NCBI GenBank assembly: GCA_017629575.1
Contig: JAGBWX010000085.1
Span: 1-34,963, forward strand
Source of the DNA: Spirochaetales bacterium
GTDB taxonomy: Bacteria; Spirochaetota; Spirochaetia; Sphaerochaetales; Sphaerochaetaceae
Length of the DNA stretch: 34,963 bases
Reading direction: 5' to 3'
Shown: piece by piece, positions 6,276 through 18,383 of the stretch
Position numbering within the stretch: position 1 is the first letter of the stretch
Layout of the letters: each line of letters begins with the position of its first letter
Notes under the pieces: generated by a model
The model's input: only the letters and a program-made list of their open reading frames with translations
Database searches by the model: none
What the model was told of the DNA's origin: nothing
Translations under genes and position numbers: made by a program

Positions 6276-6830
6276 TTATCTGATGAAGTTTGTCCTTATT
6301 CTCTTTTCCTTCTCAGGAAGAGGCAGACCTGCCTTTGCAAATGACTTGATTACATAGCTCATATTAGAACCAAGAAGACGCATTGTCTGCATGCCTTCTT
6401 CGTCTCTCTTGACTTCCTCTGGGGTATTGCCATGAACCTGGTTCCAATAGTTTGAAGAAACAACCACCATTTCAGAGATGGTGAAATACTTATTAATCTG
6501 ATCGAAGGTTGCTGTTGCCCCGCCTCTTCTGCAGGAAACAATAGCAGAGGCAGGCATGAGCCTTACCTTACCAGAAATCCTATTAAACAGTTCATCCAAG
6601 AACAATGTGCATAAGCCTGATGCTGATGCATAGTAGACAGGAGAACCAACTACCAGACCATCAGAGGCCAGAATCTTTGAAGCAATCTCATCAATCTCAG
6701 CAGAATCTGCTGTTGCCTGGATAATCTCAGTCTCAATCCCCTCTTTTTCAAGAGATGCCGCTACTTCAGAAAGGGCTGTAAAAGTACAGCCCTCTCTTCT
6801 TGGTGATCCATTTATTAGGATAGCCTTCAT
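6276..6830 (-). CDS. NAD(P)H-dependent FMN reductase-like flavoprotein
   Basis: A 184-residue flavodoxin-fold protein related to NADPH-dependent FMN reductases and iron-sulfur flavoproteins. The FMN phosphate loop is INGSPRREGCTFTA at the N-terminus, and the GSPVYYAS loop around residue 75 contacts the flavin ring. The Cys cluster of true iron-sulfur flavoproteins is not present, so it is a simple flavin reductase or quinone-type reductase. The start is the ATG at 6830, which shares one base with the lysS stop (TAATG), giving coupled translation. Two upstream in-frame codons could extend it to a TTG at 6836, but the family begins at MKAILINGSP. Physiological partner unknown. Confidence 0.82.
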   Translation of the reverse strand: MKAILINGSPRREGCTFTALSEVAASLEKEGIETEIIQATADSAEIDEIASKILASDGLVVGSPVYYASASGLCTLFLDELFNRISGKVRLMPASAIVSCRRGGATATFDQINKYFTISEMVVVSSNYWNQVHGNTPEEVKRDEEGMQTMRLLGSNMSYVIKSFAKAGLPLPEKEKRIRTNFIR

Positions 6831-8419
6831 TAACAATACCTTCTAAGAATTGGAAGAATAGTCTCGCTTCCGATTGACTTTACGAAGTTAGCAAGCTTTG
6901 GTCCCTTTTCCTTTCCGATGAGAACCATATATACAACTCTGAAGAAGTCACCGCTCTCCAAGCCGTTGTCGCCAGCTGCCTGATAGATGTAGTTTGAGAA
7001 CTCCTTCTCTGACATATTGTCGAGGTAGCTTTCGATATAGCCTGCGAAATCCTGAACAGCCTTCTTTTCATTGTCTGCAAGCTCAACAAGAGCATCTGAC
7101 TCTGATGAGAGTGCGAACTTGAAGTCTTCTGGAGCATAGTCTCTGAGCCAGTTCTTTGCACACTGCATTCTAACTCTGAGTCTTTCCTTCTGGCTCTCTG
7201 TGATGCCTTCAAGACGTGAGAATACCTTCTCCTCATCACCGTTGAAGATCTGAAGGAGGTTACAAAGGTGTCTGAATGGAATCTGATAGCCAGCCTCTGT
7301 AGGAATCTTTGAACCATCTACCTGTGAAAGCTCATAAATTCTATCTTCCTTCTCCTTTCTCTGTTCCTTTACAGGAAGGATGCCAAAGTAGATTCTTTCG
7401 CAATTGTCGTAGTCTTCGTAGATCTTGAGAACGTCAAGGTCGAATGAGATTGCGAACTCTGAATTTGGTCTTGTACCAACAAAGAGGTATCTAACAATCT
7501 CTGGTGGATAGATAGCGAGAACATCATAAAGGTCTGCAACCTCACCGCCTGAAGAAGAAATCTTGCCACCCATGCCCTTGAGCTTGATGAAGTCATATCT
7601 CATTGAAACAGGAGCTTCGCCACCAAATACCTTAACAACATTCTTGGATGTGTCGTATGAACCACCTTCTGTGAGATGGTCCTTACCGCCTGGCTCGAAG
7701 TCAACGTTTTCCTCGTTCCATCTCATAGGCCAGTCGATTCTCCAAGGAAGCTTTGTATTTGGAGTTGTTCTGATATCGATAGTCTCTTCCTTGTCGAGCT
7801 CATCATCATGATATGTGAGCATGTAGCCACCATCCCAGCCAGTTACAGTAGTTGTGTCCTTGTCTGTGAATGATGAGAATACAGATACTGGCCACCAGTT
7901 CTCTGGAAGAGGCTCTGTTCTATACTCATTGAGGATTGCTCTAATCTCATCTCTCTTTTCGAGAGCTGTCTTGATGCCCTCTACATACTTGTTTGATCTA
8001 TATCTCTCTGCCTGATAGAGGTACTCTGGGAATACGCCTACTGTTGGGAGAATCTTCTCAACTGCAATCTCATTTGCTCTAGCGTAGTTCTCTGCTCTCT
8101 CTGTTGTGTCAGGAACGAGTGTGATTGGCTTTCTGAGATATGTTGAAAGAAGCTCAGGATTAGGCATGTTCTTTGGAACCTTTCTGAATACATCATAGTC
8201 GTCCCAGCTGTAGATGAATCTTACATTCTTGCCCTTTTCTCTGAGGGCTCTAACTACGAGCTCAACTGTGATGATTTCTCTGAAGTTTCCAATGTGAACT
8301 GTGCCAGAAGGTGTGATGCGTGATGCACATGTGTAACATTCCTTATCACCCTTTTCGCGGATGATTCTATCTGCCATTATGTCTGCCCAGTGGGTACTCT
8401 GATTCTTAATTTCACTCAT
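6830..8419 (-). CDS. lysS: Class I (archaeal-type) lysyl-tRNA synthetase
   Basis: A 529-residue class I LysRS that charges tRNA-Lys. The Rossmann-fold signatures are both visible: HIGN (residues 42-45, within SGTVHIGNF) and the KMSKS equivalent GGKISSS (lysine 286). Most bacteria use the unrelated class II enzyme. The class I form is found in archaea, spirochaetes and some other bacteria, which supports the taxonomic inference. The C-terminal part is helical, as expected for the anticodon-binding cage. It heads a unit continuing into the flavin reductase and ABC genes. A promoter ends seven bases before the ATG. Confidence 0.96.
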   Translation of the reverse strand: MSEIKNQSTHWADIMADRIIREKGDKECYTCASRITPSGTVHIGNFREIITVELVVRALREKGKNVRFIYSWDDYDVFRKVPKNMPNPELLSTYLRKPITLVPDTTERAENYARANEIAVEKILPTVGVFPEYLYQAERYRSNKYVEGIKTALEKRDEIRAILNEYRTEPLPENWWPVSVFSSFTDKDTTTVTGWDGGYMLTYHDDELDKEETIDIRTTPNTKLPWRIDWPMRWNEENVDFEPGGKDHLTEGGSYDTSKNVVKVFGGEAPVSMRYDFIKLKGMGGKISSSGGEVADLYDVLAIYPPEIVRYLFVGTRPNSEFAISFDLDVLKIYEDYDNCERIYFGILPVKEQRKEKEDRIYELSQVDGSKIPTEAGYQIPFRHLCNLLQIFNGDEEKVFSRLEGITESQKERLRVRMQCAKNWLRDYAPEDFKFALSSESDALVELADNEKKAVQDFAGYIESYLDNMSEKEFSNYIYQAAGDNGLESGDFFRVVYMVLIGKEKGPKLANFVKSIGSETILPILRRYC

Positions 8420-11753: not shown

Positions 11754-12530
11754 TTATTTCATCATCAGAATGGAGAGTTCCTCCAAGAGAACCATGACTC
11801 CAATTCTAGCAAGAATGAGTTTATCCTCATCAAGAATCTTCTCAGAGAATGGAACCAAGAGATTATCTGCTTTTACAGCCATCCAGCTCTTGCTATCCAA
11901 TGTCATTACAGAAACAGGAATTCCTCTTTCCTTAGCATTCTTGATATATGGGCTGAGGTTATTGTTATCTCCTGCTGGAGAGACGATAAACAACATTCCC
12001 TCGATGGTCTTTGGATTAGCTAGGAATTCTGAAATTGACTGATGGTTAACATCATAGTTGAGCGCAATAAGCCTATTGGCAAGGTTTGAGGCAAAGAAAT
12101 TTGCATCAGAGAAGAGAATAGTAATCTTATCAATTGTCTTAAGCTCAGCTGCAATCTTTACAAGGACATTGAGATTGTCCTCATTGAGTGTCTTCTCTGA
12201 AATTCTGCAGATACCCGCATGGAATGTCGCATTGATTTCCTCTGGAGTGCTATCCTTAGATAACTTCTTCAATTTTAATGGGAAAGCGCTCTTGCCAGCC
12301 TCATAATAGATCTTGAAATCCTTAAGTCCCTTGAAGCCAAGAGTCTTGCAGAATCTAACAACAGTAGCCTTGCTTACATCTGAAGCTTTGGCAATATCAG
12401 ATATATCCATTTCCTGAATCTTGTCCTCATGCTTCAAGAGATATGCAGCAACCTTTCTTTCGAGAATGCTAAGTTCCCCCAGGTGTGCAGGCATCATTTC
12501 GGCCAATCTTGATTCATCCTTTATAGCCAT
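11754..12530 (-). CDS. RpiR/MurR-family transcriptional regulator (HTH plus SIS)
   Basis: A 258-residue regulator. The N-terminal RpiR helix-turn-helix is clear: LSILERKVAAYLLKHEDKI, then ISDIAKASDVSKATVVRFCKTLGFKGLKDFK at about residues 43-73. The C-terminal half is a sugar-isomerase (SIS) fold that normally senses a sugar phosphate, though the usual ISxSGxT phosphate loop is only weakly kept (FIVSPAGDNNN). The family controls sugar-phosphate or amino-sugar catabolic genes. No such catabolic gene is adjacent, so the target is unknown. Start 12530 has GAGG about 11 bases upstream and a probable promoter about 75 bases upstream. Confidence 0.88.
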   Translation of the reverse strand: MAIKDESRLAEMMPAHLGELSILERKVAAYLLKHEDKIQEMDISDIAKASDVSKATVVRFCKTLGFKGLKDFKIYYEAGKSAFPLKLKKLSKDSTPEEINATFHAGICRISEKTLNEDNLNVLVKIAAELKTIDKITILFSDANFFASNLANRLIALNYDVNHQSISEFLANPKTIEGMLFIVSPAGDNNNLSPYIKNAKERGIPVSVMTLDSKSWMAVKADNLLVPFSEKILDEDKLILARIGVMVLLEELSILMMK

Positions 12531-12603
12531 TTTTCAGTTTTCCTCATTCTTTAAATTGTTGTTATGTCCCCGCCATATCTTTTGAAAAAGAAACCCGATT
12601 ATT

Positions 12604-12631
12604 ATTATGCAGTATTTTTCATTCACTTCAA
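12604..12631 (-). promoter_or_regulatory. Probable promoter of the rpiR-family gene
   Basis: Minus strand TTGAAG (12626-12631), 16 bases, CATAAT (12604-12609). This gives a leader of about 65-70 bases, unlike the leaderless genes. The rest of the 12531-12745 gap is AT-rich without other recognisable structure. Confidence 0.45.
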
Positions 12632-12745
12632 GTAAGATTTGTATAATAAATCACTTGTGTAAAGAATGAGATTCTATGAAAACTTTTATGAGAAAAGCTG
12701 TAAATATAATGAATTAAGAGTAAACTAGTAATTTTTTTTCGTGTT

Positions 12746-13627
12746 TTATAGCAAATTTAATAATTTTGTACCATTAAATATCAGATCTGAACCAATCATC
12801 ATATCTATTCCATCCTCAAGAGATGAAATGTAACTGCCATAGAAGGAATCCAGATTATTTCTGTTGCTTTTCCTTGCTTTAAAAGTATCGCTAGAAATTG
12901 AAACAGCGCCTTTATCTCCTGAAATGGAGAACTTGCTATGTCTCAATCCATCAGGAGCTTTGAAATTGATTTCAATTGAAGTATCTCTGTCAAAATACGC
13001 TCTATATGATGAATCATTGATTTTATCAAGCTTTGTCACAGGACCAAATAAATGGCAAAGAAGAAGCATCTCAGAATAGGAATCCAAAATATCAATCCTA
13101 CCACCTGAGAGTTCTGGATTGCATTTCCAAGAAGATGCTCTATTGTAGATATCGGAATGTGGAAAAATATCCAGCTTTCCAGAGAGAACTTTTCCAAGCC
13201 TACCATCATCTATGGCTGCTTTTGCATTGATACACTCATCTGAGAAAATTACCTCAGCTGGGGATGATATAAATACGCCCTCGTCTTCTACAATGGAAAG
13301 AAGGTTCTCTACCCTTTCTAATGTGGTTTCCAAAGGACACTCAATTATGAGGCTCCTTCCTGTTTTTGCAATCATTGCTGCGTGCTGGAGATGGAGTGAA
13401 TTGGGTGTTGATAAAACAACGACATCTACCTGCTCATCATCGAGAAGGTATTCTACCTCGTCATAGATTTTTGGAGATCCGTGTCTAGATGCAAATTCAG
13501 CTGCCTTATCTAGCTTCCGGCTGCAGACTGCAGCAAGATAACACCCATTCAGCCTCGATATAGACTCTGCATGTCTTTCAGCCCTTTGGCCTAGTCCGAC
13601 GATGCCAAAGCCTAGCTTATCGCTCAT
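12746..13627 (-). CDS. Gfo/Idh/MocA-like oxidoreductase lacking the EKP lysine
   Basis: A 293-residue protein of the Gfo/Idh/MocA type. The dinucleotide-binding loop GIVGLGQRAERHA (residues 8-20), the VVVLSTPNSLH strand and a sheet-like C-terminal half are as expected. The hallmark EKP motif, which supplies a lysine for catalysis, reads ECP (Cys97). The usual downstream GxxxDxxxH region becomes SGGRIDILDSYSEML, so the catalytic His is not apparent. The length is 40-60 residues below the family norm. It is likely a non-catalytic or altered relative. It is the last gene of a four-gene unit and overlaps the upstream gene by four bases. Confidence 0.75.
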   Translation of the reverse strand: MSDKLGFGIVGLGQRAERHAESISRLNGCYLAAVCSRKLDKAAEFASRHGSPKIYDEVEYLLDDEQVDVVVLSTPNSLHLQHAAMIAKTGRSLIIECPLETTLERVENLLSIVEDEGVFISSPAEVIFSDECINAKAAIDDGRLGKVLSGKLDIFPHSDIYNRASSWKCNPELSGGRIDILDSYSEMLLLCHLFGPVTKLDKINDSSYRAYFDRDTSIEINFKAPDGLRHSKFSISGDKGAVSISSDTFKARKSNRNNLDSFYGSYISSLEDGIDMMIGSDLIFNGTKLLNLL

Positions 13628-14076
13628 ACCTCTTCAGCATCCTCTACAGAATCGAAGCTATCATATACAGCCTCTAAAAAGTATGAAAGAATCGAAGCTT
13701 CATCTCTTGCTCCAGCATATGGACCCAAATCTTCCCTTCTATCATCACCATACATGACAATGTGGTCAGGACCGAAGAATCCCTTTGTGCCATAGTCCTG
13801 CTGAAGTTCCTTAACTGAAACACCAAGCATTGAAGAAAGCACCCTAAGGTCCTCCTTCTCGAGAGAAATAACGTAGATAAGCTCCCCATCGTTCTCGACT
13901 GTCATTGAATAGGAGATAGAGACAACGCTCTGTGGATTCTTTGGGATTGCATTTCTTATAAAGCAAAGATCCATGCCTTCGAGCTTGAAGCGCTTGAGGA
14001 CGCCCTTATCTGTCATTGGTATATTTGGAAAACGATAGAAATCGAGTTCGTCTGCTAAAATCTTAGATATAATCAT
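13624..14076 (-). CDS. Conserved-looking protein of unknown function
   Basis: I do not recognise this 150-residue protein. It is soluble and acidic, with no signal peptide, no transmembrane segment and no cysteine pattern. The middle reads as alternating beta strands (VVSISYSMTVENDGELIYVISL). It is followed by a helix-turn segment (EDLRVLSSMLGVSVKELQQDYG) and an acidic helical tail (ASILSYFLEAVYDSFDSVEDAEEV). The gene overlaps both neighbours by four bases (ATGA type), so it is almost certainly expressed and translationally coupled with YihY and the Gfo/Idh-like protein. A role linked to one of these is plausible, but nothing in the sequence proves it. Confidence 0.75.
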   Translation of the reverse strand: MIISKILADELDFYRFPNIPMTDKGVLKRFKLEGMDLCFIRNAIPKNPQSVVSISYSMTVENDGELIYVISLEKEDLRVLSSMLGVSVKELQQDYGTKGFFGPDHIVMYGDDRREDLGPYAGARDEASILSYFLEAVYDSFDSVEDAEEV

Positions 14077-15329
14077 ATTCTCTCCAAAAGTTTTTCCATT
14101 GTAAGGAATGTGAAGCCCTTTTCTCCCTTCTGATAGAGCTCAATGGCAATAGAATCACCAACATTCTCGATGCTATCAGAGTTTACCTCATCTACTCCAT
14201 ATAGTAGATGAATGACATCCCTTACAGATATTGAACCTAGAGGTCTTCCTGGGACAAAGGATGTATACTGATTGTTGGATGCAATGATAAATCCTGCTTC
14301 ATCAAGCTCTCTAAGGTACTTCATGATTCTTGAAATAGGAATCCTCAAGGTTCTGGATATATCTTTTATAGATGTAACCCCCTCGCCTTTCTGATATCTG
14401 TCGCAAATCATCAAAAGAAGATTTATAGCCTCTGCAATAGTCTTTGCAGGACTCTGGGAAAGACCACTAATTGTGTTTCCATCTGGCTTGAACTGATGAA
14501 TGTATGCAATCTCCGTTATTGCAATCAGGATGTACCAGAAGATGTAAAGGTAGAGAAGAACGAAGAAGATTGATGCAAGTGTTCCATAGATAGTCCAATA
14601 TGAAACAAGTTTAGAAACTAGGAAACTGAATGCAAAATTAACTATTGATATGAATACAAGACCTGTAGTTGCTCCAATTGCTGCACTTGAATTCCTGACC
14701 TTTGTGTTTGGAACAGCTATTAAGAATAAGAAGAAAGAGAACCAAACCAAGGCAAGGGAACCAATCTTTCGCACCACTATTGCCATTGTCATTGTTAACT
14801 CTGTGTTATTTACATAAGCTTCAAATCGTGCCATAAGGGTACTTGAAAGCGCAAAGATCATTGCAATGAGCACGGTGAATACTATGAGGAAAATAACAAA
14901 AGTTCCATACCTCTTGACTACTCCATTCTGTGGCCTTGTCTTGTAAATCTGATTGATTACCATGTAAATTTTGTTTACAAGAAGGATTCCTGTATAAAAG
15001 TATGATACAAGGCCAATAGCGCCAAGGCGCATTGCATTTGCTGAATAGTTCACGAGCTCAGAAAGAATCTCTGCTGAAGCCTCATCGCCAAATGTATTGG
15101 TTAACCAAATCGTCAAGTTTTCGAAAAATGATTGGAGAGCATCAAAAGACGATAAGAAGGTAAACAAGAAGGTAAGACATGGAATAAGGGCAATAAGCGT
15201 TGAATAAACTAGGCCTGATGCCAAAATCGTAATATTCTCAATAGAAAGCCCCTTGAGTACATTCTTCAAGACTTTATAGTAATTTCCCCACCAAGAAGTC
15301 AGCTCTTTTTCTTTTTTTTCGTTACTCAC
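14073..15329 (-). CDS. YihY/UPF0761 membrane protein with C-terminal winged-helix domain
   Basis: A 418-residue protein. Residues 1-280 are the YihY/BrkB membrane domain: about six transmembrane helices and the conserved ASGLVYSTLIALIPCLTFLF start of helix 1. The family was once called ribonuclease BN, but that is a misassignment and its function is unknown. Residues about 290-355 add a winged-helix-like domain (GVTSIKDISRTLRIPISRIMKYLRELDEAGFI), giving a membrane protein with a possible cytoplasmic nucleic-acid-binding or dimerising part. The gene overlaps the hydrolase gene by eight bases and the next gene by four. Confidence 0.88.
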   Translation of the reverse strand: MSNEKKEKELTSWWGNYYKVLKNVLKGLSIENITILASGLVYSTLIALIPCLTFLFTFLSSFDALQSFFENLTIWLTNTFGDEASAEILSELVNYSANAMRLGAIGLVSYFYTGILLVNKIYMVINQIYKTRPQNGVVKRYGTFVIFLIVFTVLIAMIFALSSTLMARFEAYVNNTELTMTMAIVVRKIGSLALVWFSFFLFLIAVPNTKVRNSSAAIGATTGLVFISIVNFAFSFLVSKLVSYWTIYGTLASIFFVLLYLYIFWYILIAITEIAYIHQFKPDGNTISGLSQSPAKTIAEAINLLLMICDRYQKGEGVTSIKDISRTLRIPISRIMKYLRELDEAGFIIASNNQYTSFVPGRPLGSISVRDVIHLLYGVDEVNSDSIENVGDSIAIELYQKGEKGFTFLTMEKLLERI

Positions 15330-16239
15330 TTAAAAATTCCCTATAGAATCCAGCAATGATATCCAAGCTCTCATGCTTTGTATCATCATTGAGAATCTCA
15401 TGTCTTCCATTCTTTATCAGGGCAAGCCTTACATCTTCAATTCCTGCATCTTTATAAAGCTTGCATGACTGCTCAACGCCCTTGGAGAAGTTGCCAACAG
15501 GGTCATCTTCACCAGAAATGAGCAGAATTGGAAGATCCTTTCTGATTTTCTTAGCTACCGCTGGATCGTTGGCGATAATTGTACCTCCAATGAGGTCTTT
15601 ATAGAAGCTAGATGTACAGGTAAAACCACATAGAGGATCTGCAATATACTTTTCAACCATCTCTCTATCCTTGCTGAGCCATGCAAAAGGTCCTTCGCTC
15701 TTGAACTTTGCATTATAGCCGCCAAAGATAATTACATTGAGCATCATATCTTTGTGCTTTGCACCAAAGAGTGCCTGCTTGAAGCTTGCAAGCCCCTTTC
15801 CAATGACACCAATTGCCCCCTGACTGCCTCCGGTACCGCAAATAACCGCAGCATCATAAATATCGCTATGGTCTGCAATATTCTTTCTTGCCATGAAGGA
15901 ACCCATTGAGTGGCCAAAGATGAAGTGTGGGATGCCCTTATATTCCTCGTTGATGATCATATCAATGTCATAGCCATCGATAGATGCATGTTCCCAGCCA
16001 TTCTTTTTGTTGAAATAGCCCTTAAGACCTTCCTCTCCAAGGCTATTGCCATGCCCCATATGGTCGTGGCAGAAAACTGCAAAGCCTTCATTGTTCATGT
16101 ATTCTGCAAATTCGGCATATCTAGCACCATGCTCTGCCATTCCATGATAGATATGGATTGTTGCTCTTGCATTTTCAACTGGCCAAACTCTATAGAAAAT
16201 CTTCTGCCCCAGTCTATTGATGAACTCTCTTTCCAACAT
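15322..16239 (-). CDS. Alpha/beta hydrolase, monoacylglycerol lipase-like
   Basis: A protein of 305 residues (315 if started at ATG 16269) with the serine hydrolase lid family fold of monoacylglycerol lipases/lysophospholipases. The oxyanion region is HIYHGMAEHGARYAEFA, the DHMGHG turn is typical, the nucleophile elbow is GHSMGS, the acid is in LLISGEDDPVG and the histidine is in NGRHEILND. It probably cleaves an acyl-glycerol or lysophospholipid. ATG 16239 is chosen because homologous sequence starts there and GGAGG sits ten bases upstream. ATG 16269 nine bases after a TAGAAT is an alternative. First gene of a four-gene operon. Confidence 0.87.
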   Translation of the reverse strand: MLEREFINRLGQKIFYRVWPVENARATIHIYHGMAEHGARYAEFAEYMNNEGFAVFCHDHMGHGNSLGEEGLKGYFNKKNGWEHASIDGYDIDMIINEEYKGIPHFIFGHSMGSFMARKNIADHSDIYDAAVICGTGGSQGAIGVIGKGLASFKQALFGAKHKDMMLNVIIFGGYNAKFKSEGPFAWLSKDREMVEKYIADPLCGFTCTSSFYKDLIGGTIIANDPAVAKKIRKDLPILLISGEDDPVGNFSKGVEQSCKLYKDAGIEDVRLALIKNGRHEILNDDTKHESLDIIAGFYREFLSE

Positions 16240-16306
16240 CTGCCTTATTCCTCCTTCAAGCAACTTCATGATACCACAATTCTACTCAGAGATAACAATT
16301 CTATTA

Positions 16307-16335
16307 TTTACCTGATTATAAATTAAGCATATTCT
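16307..16335 (+). promoter_or_regulatory. Promoter of the YfcE-type phosphoesterase, leaderless spacing
   Basis: TTTACC (16307-16312), 17 bases, TATTCT (16330-16335), then six bases to the ATG at 16342. Confidence 0.65.
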
Positions 16336-16341
16336 CAGAAT

Positions 16342-16833
16342 ATGCATTATCTCGTGGTATCTGACATACATGGACAGGAAGATGGCATACAGCTCATCAA
16401 AAACGCAATCAAAAGATTCAAGCCAGAGGGGATCATCTCTGCAGGCGATCAATGCCCTTACCCAGGGGAAGATCTATTCTCATCTCTAATTTCAGTCAGG
16501 GGCAACTGCGATAGATTCTACGAATATGGAAGCATTCCCTTTCCTCCGTTGAAGAGAGAACTTACCATATTTGGACGCTCTATATATGTGACACATGGAG
16601 ATTCAATCTGGGTTGACGACTTAATGCTTGAAGAGGGCTCTGTTTTTATCTCAGGCCATACACATGTACCATCAATTAGAAAGGAAGCTGGAATTTATTT
16701 GCTCAATCCAGGATCTGCATCAAGGCCAAGGTCCTCTGATGGCCCCACAGCAGCATTACTATCAGAAGAAGGCTTCACCATCTTTTCCCTGATTGACTTC
16801 ACCATAGTCTCCACCTTGAACTTCTCTGAATAG
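16342..16833 (+). CDS. YfcE/MJ0936-family metallophosphoesterase
   Basis: A 163-residue calcineurin-like phosphoesterase of the small YfcE group, which hydrolyse phosphodiesters with two metal ions. Metal ligands are visible in order: DIHG at the N-terminus, GDQ about residue 40, GNCDR about 54-58, THGD about 88-91 and the final SGHTHVP about 103-109. The GSASRPR segment after it is characteristic of YfcE. The last 139 bases overlap the 3' end of the AOR-like gene on the other strand. The physiological substrate is unknown. Confidence 0.9.
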   Translation: MHYLVVSDIHGQEDGIQLIKNAIKRFKPEGIISAGDQCPYPGEDLFSSLISVRGNCDRFYEYGSIPFPPLKRELTIFGRSIYVTHGDSIWVDDLMLEEGSVFISGHTHVPSIRKEAGIYLLNPGSASRPRSSDGPTAALLSEEGFTIFSLIDFTIVSTLNFSE

Positions 16834-18383
16834 AAGTATTCCTTGAGCTTTCTCATAGGAACTGTTCTATTGTCGATTGCGCTCCTTGGCTCCATCTCAA
16901 AGTACTCTGGGATATCCTCCATCTCAAGCTTGAGCTTATCAAATAGCTCAAGACCCTTAGGTAGGAGTTCCTTCATCTTATGGCCATACAATGTGAATCC
17001 CCTACAGAACATTCTCATCAAAAATGGAACATGATAAGCAATCTCAGGGATTCTGCTCCAATAAAGGGCTGCTGCAGAAAATGGTCTATATCCATACTCC
17101 AGCAGGGCTAGGACATATATGAGCTCATACAATGCCAAGATAGCTGCACACTCAGGATTCATTGGGAATTTTGGAAGCACAGCACCTGCTGGAAGGAATA
17201 TTGGAAGAGACATTGAAGACAAGATAGCAGCTTCATAGTTACCTCTCAAATCAGCAGAAATCGCCTCTCCTCTATCACTCTGGATAGCTTTTGGGAAAGT
17301 CTTAAGCCCCTCTTGGAAAAGAGCTCCAGAGCCTCTATTCTCTCCAATTAGGTAGATGAGCTTCAAATAACTTTCTATTGATAGATCCTTGATTCCAAGC
17401 ATCTCAAGCTCTGTATCTTCAAGTGTGGATGCATATGAAAGCAGTGCACCAAGATGAGTGCTGTCCAAGCCTTGCTCGAAAGCTGCAGATGAAAGTTTTA
17501 TGACCTTTTCTGGCGCAAATATACCCAAGTTGGTTCCAAGCATCATGACATCCTGCCAAGTTGGAAGAACTGAGTTGTCCTTCTTTCTTCTGCCACAGGC
17601 AAGGAAGCAATCCTGACAAGAGTCTGGATAGTTTCCATAGATCTCGACAAAGTTCTTCGATGAAAGTGAGTATGCTCTAGGATCGAAACGGTCTGAATAA
17701 TATCTTACTGGAAGCCAACCAAGTCGGAGGGCATCCTCGACAAAGCAGCAGGCTCCCTGCTTTCTTATCCTTCTAGCAAAGGCTGACTTCTCTACCCTTC
17801 TGGACCACTTAGAAGCATTCTTGACGACATCAACCTTTGCAAAGCCCTGGGCAACGATTCCCTTGAGTCCTTTCTCATGGAATGCATAGCCCAATCCTGG
17901 AGCTGATACAGTCTTTCCCTGTCCCTGGAGAGTTGAGAATTTAATGCCATTATCGGCAGCTCTTGATGTAGAGAGAGCTGAATCTTGCACAGATCTTACA
18001 ATCTTCTCGAACTCTGTAGATGTTGCGCCCTTCAATCCTTCTGCTGCTATAACTTCATATTGTCCCTGATAAAGAGAAACATAGCTTAAACGATGGATTT
18101 TGCCCCTGATGACCAAAGCAGAAAGGCCTAGCTTGTAAAGGCTATAGCCCATTGGCAAATTTGAGTATGCGAAGGACACCTTCTCTGTAATTGGAGATGT
18201 AAAAACAATGGAGAACGCTGCAGAACCTGCATTCTCGATTGCCTCTGAAGATGGGGATGCGATGACAATTGCGTCCTGATTGCATCCGTTATATAAATCT
18301 ATTGCCAGTGCAAGCCCACGCATGCCACCATCAGGATGAAGGCTCATGGTTCCAGCAGTAAGGTCTATCTCCAAATACTCCAT
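16695..18383 (-). CDS. Aldehyde:ferredoxin oxidoreductase-family protein, degenerate
   Basis: A 562-residue protein with AOR family architecture: an N-terminal domain (LEIDLTAGTMSL, then GGMRGLA), a central helical domain and a C-terminal one. The Fe-S motif CxxCxxxC is present as Cys256, Cys259 and Cys263. The GLDSTHLG stretch at 305-312 matches the family's GLDTxSxG. However, the SGR-like pterin contacts, the YATSxRGxCH segment (here AILSSMSLPIFLPAG) and the late DxxGLC motif with the fourth cluster ligand are not recognisable. It may have lost tungstopterin or cluster binding. It is about 50 residues short for the family. Its last 46 codons lie antisense to the phosphoesterase gene. Confidence 0.7.
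   Translation of the reverse strand: MEYLEIDLTAGTMSLHPDGGMRGLALAIDLYNGCNQDAIVIASPSSEAIENAGSAAFSIVFTSPITEKVSFAYSNLPMGYSLYKLGLSALVIRGKIHRLSYVSLYQGQYEVIAAEGLKGATSTEFEKIVRSVQDSALSTSRAADNGIKFSTLQGQGKTVSAPGLGYAFHEKGLKGIVAQGFAKVDVVKNASKWSRRVEKSAFARRIRKQGACCFVEDALRLGWLPVRYYSDRFDPRAYSLSSKNFVEIYGNYPDSCQDCFLACGRRKKDNSVLPTWQDVMMLGTNLGIFAPEKVIKLSSAAFEQGLDSTHLGALLSYASTLEDTELEMLGIKDLSIESYLKLIYLIGENRGSGALFQEGLKTFPKAIQSDRGEAISADLRGNYEAAILSSMSLPIFLPAGAVLPKFPMNPECAAILALYELIYVLALLEYGYRPFSAAALYWSRIPEIAYHVPFLMRMFCRGFTLYGHKMKELLPKGLELFDKLKLEMEDIPEYFEMEPRSAIDNRTVPMRKLKEYFYSEKFKVETMVKSIREKMVKPSSDSNAAVGPSEDLGLDADPGLSK

Follow-up and report, generated by a model that had tools for sequence, protein, structure and literature searches.

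The 34,963-nucleotide contig JAGBWX010000085.1 (assembly GCA_017629575.1, a Spirochaetales bacterium of the family Sphaerochaetaceae), hereafter 'the window', comes from a 1.41-Mb draft genome that is 85% complete and carries on its reverse strand a run of four overlapping genes: a lipase gene, yihY, the gene of a 150-residue protein that we call p150, and gfo (Table 1). An initial annotation had read these four genes as one operon with a common task, perhaps membrane lipid turnover linked to signalling through YihY. The identities on which it built (a monoacylglycerol lipase-like hydrolase, a YihY membrane protein with a winged helix, an unrecognised 150-residue protein and a Gfo/Idh protein) are borne out by profile scans, and the open reading frame (ORF) coordinates give the same overlaps of 8, 4 and 4 bases between lipase and yihY, yihY and p150, and p150 and gfo. 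The first three of these genes, lipase–yihY–p150, are a real conserved three-gene unit.

Table 1. Positions in the window of the gene block, of two regions within YihY and of the divergent neighbouring gene.
Feature	Position	Strand	Basis
lipase, first gene: monoacylglycerol-lipase/lysophospholipase-type serine hydrolase, 305 aa	15322..16239	-	PF12146, triad
yihY, second gene: inner-membrane protein of the YihY/BrkB family, 418 aa, starting with GTG	14073..15329	-	PF03631, TIGR00765, hydropathy
Predicted Rrf2-type winged-helix module, YihY residues 293-418	14076..14453	-	structure alignment to IscR, weak profile matches
YihY TM3-TM4 loop, residues 162-188; site of a beta-propeller insert in other Spirochaetota	14766..14846	-	
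p150, third gene: orphan acidic protein, 150 aa	13624..14076	-	no Pfam/NCBIfam match
gfo: local passenger, Gfo/Idh/MocA-like, ECP at the EKP position	12746..13627	-	PF01408
YfcE-type phosphodiesterase, divergent flanking gene	16342..16833	+	PF12850 E 1.4e-23

The lipase ORF reaches to 16269, but no Shine-Dalgarno-like stretch is visible before that alternative start and the one at 16239, preceded by GGAGG, is preferred; similar stretches precede yihY (AGGGA), p150 (GGAG) and gfo (GAGG), in each case within the 3′ end of the gene before. Overlap alone is ordinary in this window. By the crude gene model made for this analysis, 9 of 24 adjacent same-strand gene pairs overlap by 1–11 bases, three of the nine being those of the block, and outside the block the count is still 6 of 21. 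Overlaps this common say little about a common task, and tight overlap, from which the task had originally been argued, was rejected as proof of one. A promoter scan of positions 12400–16700 gave six promoter-like sites (four of them on the reverse strand inside the block) against 12.1 expected from shuffles, and the sole terminator-like site of the scan lies upstream of the block; internal promoters or terminators were therefore rejected, there being fewer sites than in shuffled sequence.

Conservation, unlike overlap, exceeds chance. Profiles for p150, YihY and the lipase were run against 139 genomes from the family of the window (Sphaerochaetaceae-like), and adjacency was taken from the coordinates. 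The counts given here come from these profile searches and not from ORF-based locus readings, which overextended p150 in locus L049, missed it or left it unlabelled in L042, L043, L054 and L071, and did the same to yihY in L041; absence means absence at the E-values set, and many of the genomes are drafts. The lipase was found in 131 of the 139 genomes, YihY in 126 and p150 in 108. Both lipase and YihY are present in 123, and in all but one of these (122/123) the two genes share a strand, with the lipase gene upstream and at most 400 bases from yihY. Every p150-bearing genome also has yihY (108/108, with no case of p150 without it), and where the two share a contig (103 of 108) they lie less than 400 bases apart in 83 genomes and 400–1300 bases apart in 20. 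Lipase and yihY occur together in 17 of the family's 22 genera and p150 in 12, while all three are present in each of the 48 genomes of the window's genus. There the profile coordinates give the 4-base yihY–p150 overlap in 42 genomes; the profile match stops short in the other six, whose ORF-called overlap is 4–14 bases. A set of 296 genomes of the phylum, searched alike for lipase and YihY, contained 12 family genomes with both, adjacent in all 12. By the neighbourhood comparison for which the initial annotation had called, lipase, yihY and p150 thus keep their order outside the source strain, and with a conserved lipase–YihY pair and p150 as its usual third member a shared task of the three is likely.

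The fourth gene stands outside this unit. That all four form a true operon, the Gfo/Idh protein supplying a redox step on the sugar of a lipid head group, we regard as very improbable in spite of the 4-base overlap between p150 and gfo, and we rejected the four-gene unit because only 6 of the 48 genus genomes (G000, G030, G032, G057, G058 and G059) have a Gfo-like gene immediately after p150. The remaining genomes have no Gfo-like gene in this slot at E 1e-12, apart from G031, whose contig ends inside p150 so that the slot cannot be judged; G060 and G072 do have a Gfo-like match, but some 1.5 kb past p150 and outside the slot. The window protein matches PF01408 (E 1.4e-18) and exceeds the cut-off of its Rossmann domain profile (68 versus 24 bits), but the five slot relatives are only 26–35% identical to it, and the lysine of EKP, the catalytic residue of Gfo/Idh/MocA dehydrogenases, is missing in five of the six: the window protein has ECP at this motif, those of G030, G032, G057 and G058 have ETP, and one has EKP. 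Since RpiR-like and methyltransferase-like genes come next in L057, L068 and L069, as they do in the window, the placement of gfo looks like a sub-clade arrangement, and we read gfo as a local, lineage-specific passenger. The lysine-less members, with ECP in the window and ETP in four, possibly form one group of Gfo/Idh/MocA proteins.

The lipase is the strongest of six PF12146 (Hydrolase_4) matches in the genome (E 4.1e-44, 151 bits against a cut-off of 27). By profile it has the fold family of MGLL, the monoacylglycerol lipase (MGL) of M. tuberculosis and E. coli PldB, with HGMAEH, GHSMG and Ser/Asp/His as in that group; Ser111 (in GHSMG), Asp246 and His280, which we take to be the catalytic triad, are invariant in 11 of 11 aligned rows. 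Among solved structures, a profile built from 11 relatives finds several monoglyceride lipases as well as alpha/beta hydrolases with only generic names. The best PDB sequence matches of the lipase are the alpha/beta hydrolases 5o7g, 5olu and 6khk, and it falls far under the equivalog cut-off of PldB (41 versus 362 bits). No signal peptide was seen by eye. Judged by these sequence relatives, its substrate may be a monoacylglycerol or a lysolipid.

YihY exceeds the cut-offs of both BrkB PF03631 (E 5.9e-32, 112 versus 33.7 bits) and TIGR00765 (100.7 versus 73.15 bits), with about six helices by hydropathy and loop charges that suggest cytosolic ends. It shares its membrane domain with the PRK04214 fusion, and the alignment (profile positions 27–345 of 412) extends into the C-terminal 'unknown domain' of PRK04214, whose cut-off of 500 bits it does not approach (108 bits); the window YihY differs in that its tail is assigned to the Rrf2 type and its gene has a lipase gene as partner. 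E. coli YhjD (TIGR00766) belongs to the same superfamily (E 1.1e-5, 25 bits against a cut-off of 214) and is not known to have an Rrf2 tail. The genetics of YhjD are read as lipid export, and it is because of this superfamily member that YihY may be linked to lipids. Substitutions in YhjD are reported to give viable E. coli depleted of 3-deoxy-D-manno-oct-2-ulosonic acid (Kdo) (Mamat, 2008, listed among the references of PMC4404585). The open-access literature yielded no paper joining BrkB with phospholipid and the inner membrane or with a winged helix, and none joining YihY with lysophospholipase, which is weak evidence of absence.

The tail of YihY (residues 293–418) aligns in a predicted model with IscR (4hf0_A; Z 13.8, root-mean-square deviation 3.2, 113 of 120 residues aligned in VIA-align) and with CymR (3t8t; Z 13.6, root-mean-square deviation 5.0, 121 aligned), so that on this model the Rrf2 fold extends over the whole domain; across IscR, CymR, NsrR and RsrR the Z values are 11–14. 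The model is middling (predicted local distance difference test, pLDDT, 71.9; predicted template modelling score 0.53), with per-block pLDDT of 81–87 over most of residues 301–370 and 45–70 beyond, and its matches cover the tail only, the membrane domain being barely tested. Sequence support for an Rrf2 relationship is weak (best profile E 0.009; PF02082 at 21 bits, below its cut-off of 30). The tail differs from the Rrf2 regulators in being fused to a membrane domain and in lacking two of their features. The RGxxGGY wing, which we take to be their DNA contact, appears as RGAxGGY in three aligned solved Rrf2 chains and as NNQYTSF in the window YihY, and RGxxGG is found in none of 21 aligned YihY tail rows; nor does any column hold a cysteine in at least three of these 21 rows. 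With both the wing motif and a shared cysteine absent, we infer that the tail is probably neither a standard DNA-binding nor an iron–sulfur-sensing domain, and it may instead be a docking surface.

The same features bear on whether YihY might be a membrane-bound transcription regulator, in which an envelope-sensing domain and a DNA-binding tail control the lipase operon and p150 modulates them. The complete Rrf2-type fold of the predicted tail would suit such a regulator, as would the loop that carries a propeller in other Spirochaetota (see below) and lies across the membrane from the tail, an arrangement that fits a transmembrane sensor. We nevertheless consider it unlikely given the missing wing and cysteine column, and because no repeat is common to the 62 stretches upstream of lipase genes that we compared (duplicates included). 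The signalling through YihY proposed earlier thus retains an Rrf2-like module in its favour, but signalling of the classical DNA-binding kind is doubtful. In the window itself a perfect 8-base inverted repeat, GCATATTC-TCA-GAATATGC, lies at 16327–16345 in the divergent gap between yfcE and the lipase gene, where it overlaps the yfcE start. The 19-base pattern, allowing up to three mismatches, has 15 forward matches against three for the reversed control, an excess that is unexplained; three further near-copies were placed, two within genes and one intergenic. As an operator the palindrome was rejected, with no counterpart seen upstream of the relatives' lipase genes and with two of the three placed near-copies intragenic.

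Elsewhere in the phylum YihY proteins carry an addition that bears on the role of the family. Of 77 YihY matches in the phylum search, 39 are ORFs of at least 740 residues, most of which match from about profile position 180. In all eight long proteins that were fetched (L160–L167 from genomes G296, G213, G281, G155, G178, G255, G269 and G207; 763–817 residues; all from other Spirochaetota families) two YihY halves lie about 320–360 residues apart, the insert falling between profile positions 163–172 and 178–185, that is, in the loop between transmembrane helices 3 and 4 (TM3–TM4), and matching PF14870 (Ycf48-like, a BNR-type beta-propeller) in 8 of 8. In the second half the match continues to profile position 348–377 of 414, and it includes much of the winged-helix tail. 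By loop charges the TM3–TM4 loop faces outward, loop and tail lying on opposite faces of the membrane. The insert supports a trans-envelope role for the YihY family, but it is no direct evidence for the window YihY, whose own TM3–TM4 loop is short. One could go further and suppose that Rrf2-tailed BrkB/YihY proteins are trans-envelope lipid sensors or translocases with a tail repurposed from DNA binding to protein docking; in Sphaerochaetaceae the docked partner would be the new family p150, coupling YihY to a dedicated lipase, and in other Spirochaetota a propeller would sit on the outer face. This is speculative and we think it decidedly unlikely as a whole.

p150 is an acidic protein (isoelectric point 4.4) of 138–187 residues across loci, apart from one contig-cut and one overextended ORF, and its AlphaFold model is an alpha/beta protein with pLDDT 94.5. 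Ten positions are at least 90% conserved in 24 rows (E73, D76-L77-R78, G85, Q92, Y109, E115, G118 and D139). The window protein has no Pfam or NCBIfam match and no PDB sequence match at E 10, and the 24 members compared with Pfam gave only scattered matches, with at most two members per family and a best E of 0.005. Structure matches are weak: the best in Foldseek is C1QBP (E 0.03), the best in VIA acetate kinase (Z 4.5), and uncharacterised giant-virus proteins match at E 4e-3 with a TM-score of about 0.5. There is no convincing sequence or fold relative. Of the 392 genomes searched across the phylum, 30 match p150, 29 of them in the family, and the one match outside it (G250, E 0.002) was taken as chance. 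A single-protein scan of genome contigs gave no match; a scan with the p150 alignment, made with one pattern that could miss distant relatives, gave 25 loci, all spirochaetal and titled uncultured Spirochaetaceae or Spirochaetales, Candidatus Ornithospirochaeta or Sphaerochaeta halotolerans. p150 represents an undescribed family that neither Pfam nor NCBIfam contains, and its fold is predicted with confidence. All ten YihY proteins detected in genus g21 stop short of the Rrf2-like module, as judged by profile range or ORF length, and none of the 11 genomes of g21 yielded p150. A link between the tail and p150 is suggestive only, since g21 is one clade and perhaps one event, and eight genomes elsewhere combine a long YihY with no p150.

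As the reading that we favour, although it still falls well short of probable, we tentatively suggest that lipase, YihY and p150 make up a membrane-lipid handling unit. YihY, in the inner membrane, would translocate or sense a lipid; the lipase, a soluble serine enzyme, would hydrolyse lipids with one acyl chain, either monoacylglycerol or a lysolipid, on the cytosolic side; and the cytosolic Rrf2-like tail of YihY, relieved of normal DNA binding, would be the docking site for p150, its putative lineage-specific cytosolic partner. Lipid turnover as first proposed thus survives, without its four-gene scope, as a notion that fits the lipase and the lipid link of YhjD. A variant in which YihY exports or imports a compound of the fatty-acid or monoacylglycerol type, hydrolysed by the lipase for food or defence, would agree with an MGL-like lipase and with YihY as a possible transporter, yet it seems improbable when no fatty-acid uptake or beta-oxidation family occurs among the flanking proteins scanned, a small sample.

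What the data show are the identities of the genes, their order and conservation, the Rrf2-like fold in the tail model and the missing wing motif; the lipid substrate, transport by YihY, the cytosolic side of the lipase and docking of p150 are things that we infer, and the substrates of YihY and of the lipase are putative. A number of observations weigh against the lipid-handling unit. The lipase gene of genome G078 (loci L176 and L177) is on a separate contig with unrelated genes after it, and yihY and p150 remain at their usual site next to aor and yfcE; a contig edge as the cause was rejected on reading both contigs, and this is a true exception, although as one in 123 it hardly moves the odds. 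G007 and G079 have yihY and p150 with no lipase at threshold, G137 has yihY alone, and within the family eight genomes have a long YihY but no p150, and eight have a lipase but no YihY. An antisense gene parts yihY from p150 in six loci of genera g5, g9 and g16 (L044, at 6358–7161, and L035, L037, L045, L046 and L071), all of one cluster whose scanned member is a ZIP-type transporter, and in L050 (g20) an antisense gene for 279 residues without a Pfam match lies between them. Given these genes and the gaps of 400–1300 bases in 20 genomes, yihY and p150 are not always co-transcribed; internal promoters, which the initial annotation had named as grounds for doubting its block, are no more frequent than chance in the window, but in several other genera p150 is cut off from yihY. 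Outside the family, nine genomes of the 296-genome set have both lipase and YihY, on one contig in none of the nine (many are drafts). Co-divergence of p150 with YihY is barely above that with the lipase (mirror-tree partial r 0.38 versus 0.24, higher in 81% of resamples, a weak test; lipase–YihY 0.56), with all three genes held in 40 of the 43 loci used.

Some of these points would equally suit neighbours by inheritance, that is, conserved microsynteny of a stable region without a common task, which we consider possible though doubtful. An aor-like (aldehyde ferredoxin oxidoreductase-like) gene with no obvious link to the others is labelled close to the lipase in 25 of the 37 loci compared (yfcE in 14; the labels are from ORF calls, and the 37 are those of 41 stretches in which a lipase was labelled), and the order may on this count be an inherited neighbourhood, as the frequency of overlaps in the window and the departure of the G078 lipase, with yihY–p150 staying behind, might also suggest. 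Inheritance alone accounts less readily for order and close spacing that persist at 26–51% protein identity over 17 genera, or for the absence of p150 from any genome without yihY. The lipase–yihY pair is also kept where the labelled flanks differ.

YihY/BrkB proteins are widespread, a control search having recovered them from 10 of 14 well-known genomes. To our knowledge the function of this family is not established. With a lipase as its usual partner, a second, small partner and a tail domain that can be identified, the function of YihY becomes testable in cultivable Sphaerochaeta. The aor-like gene of the window itself (16695–18383, 562 residues) reaches no equivalog cut-off and matches AFOR domains in part.

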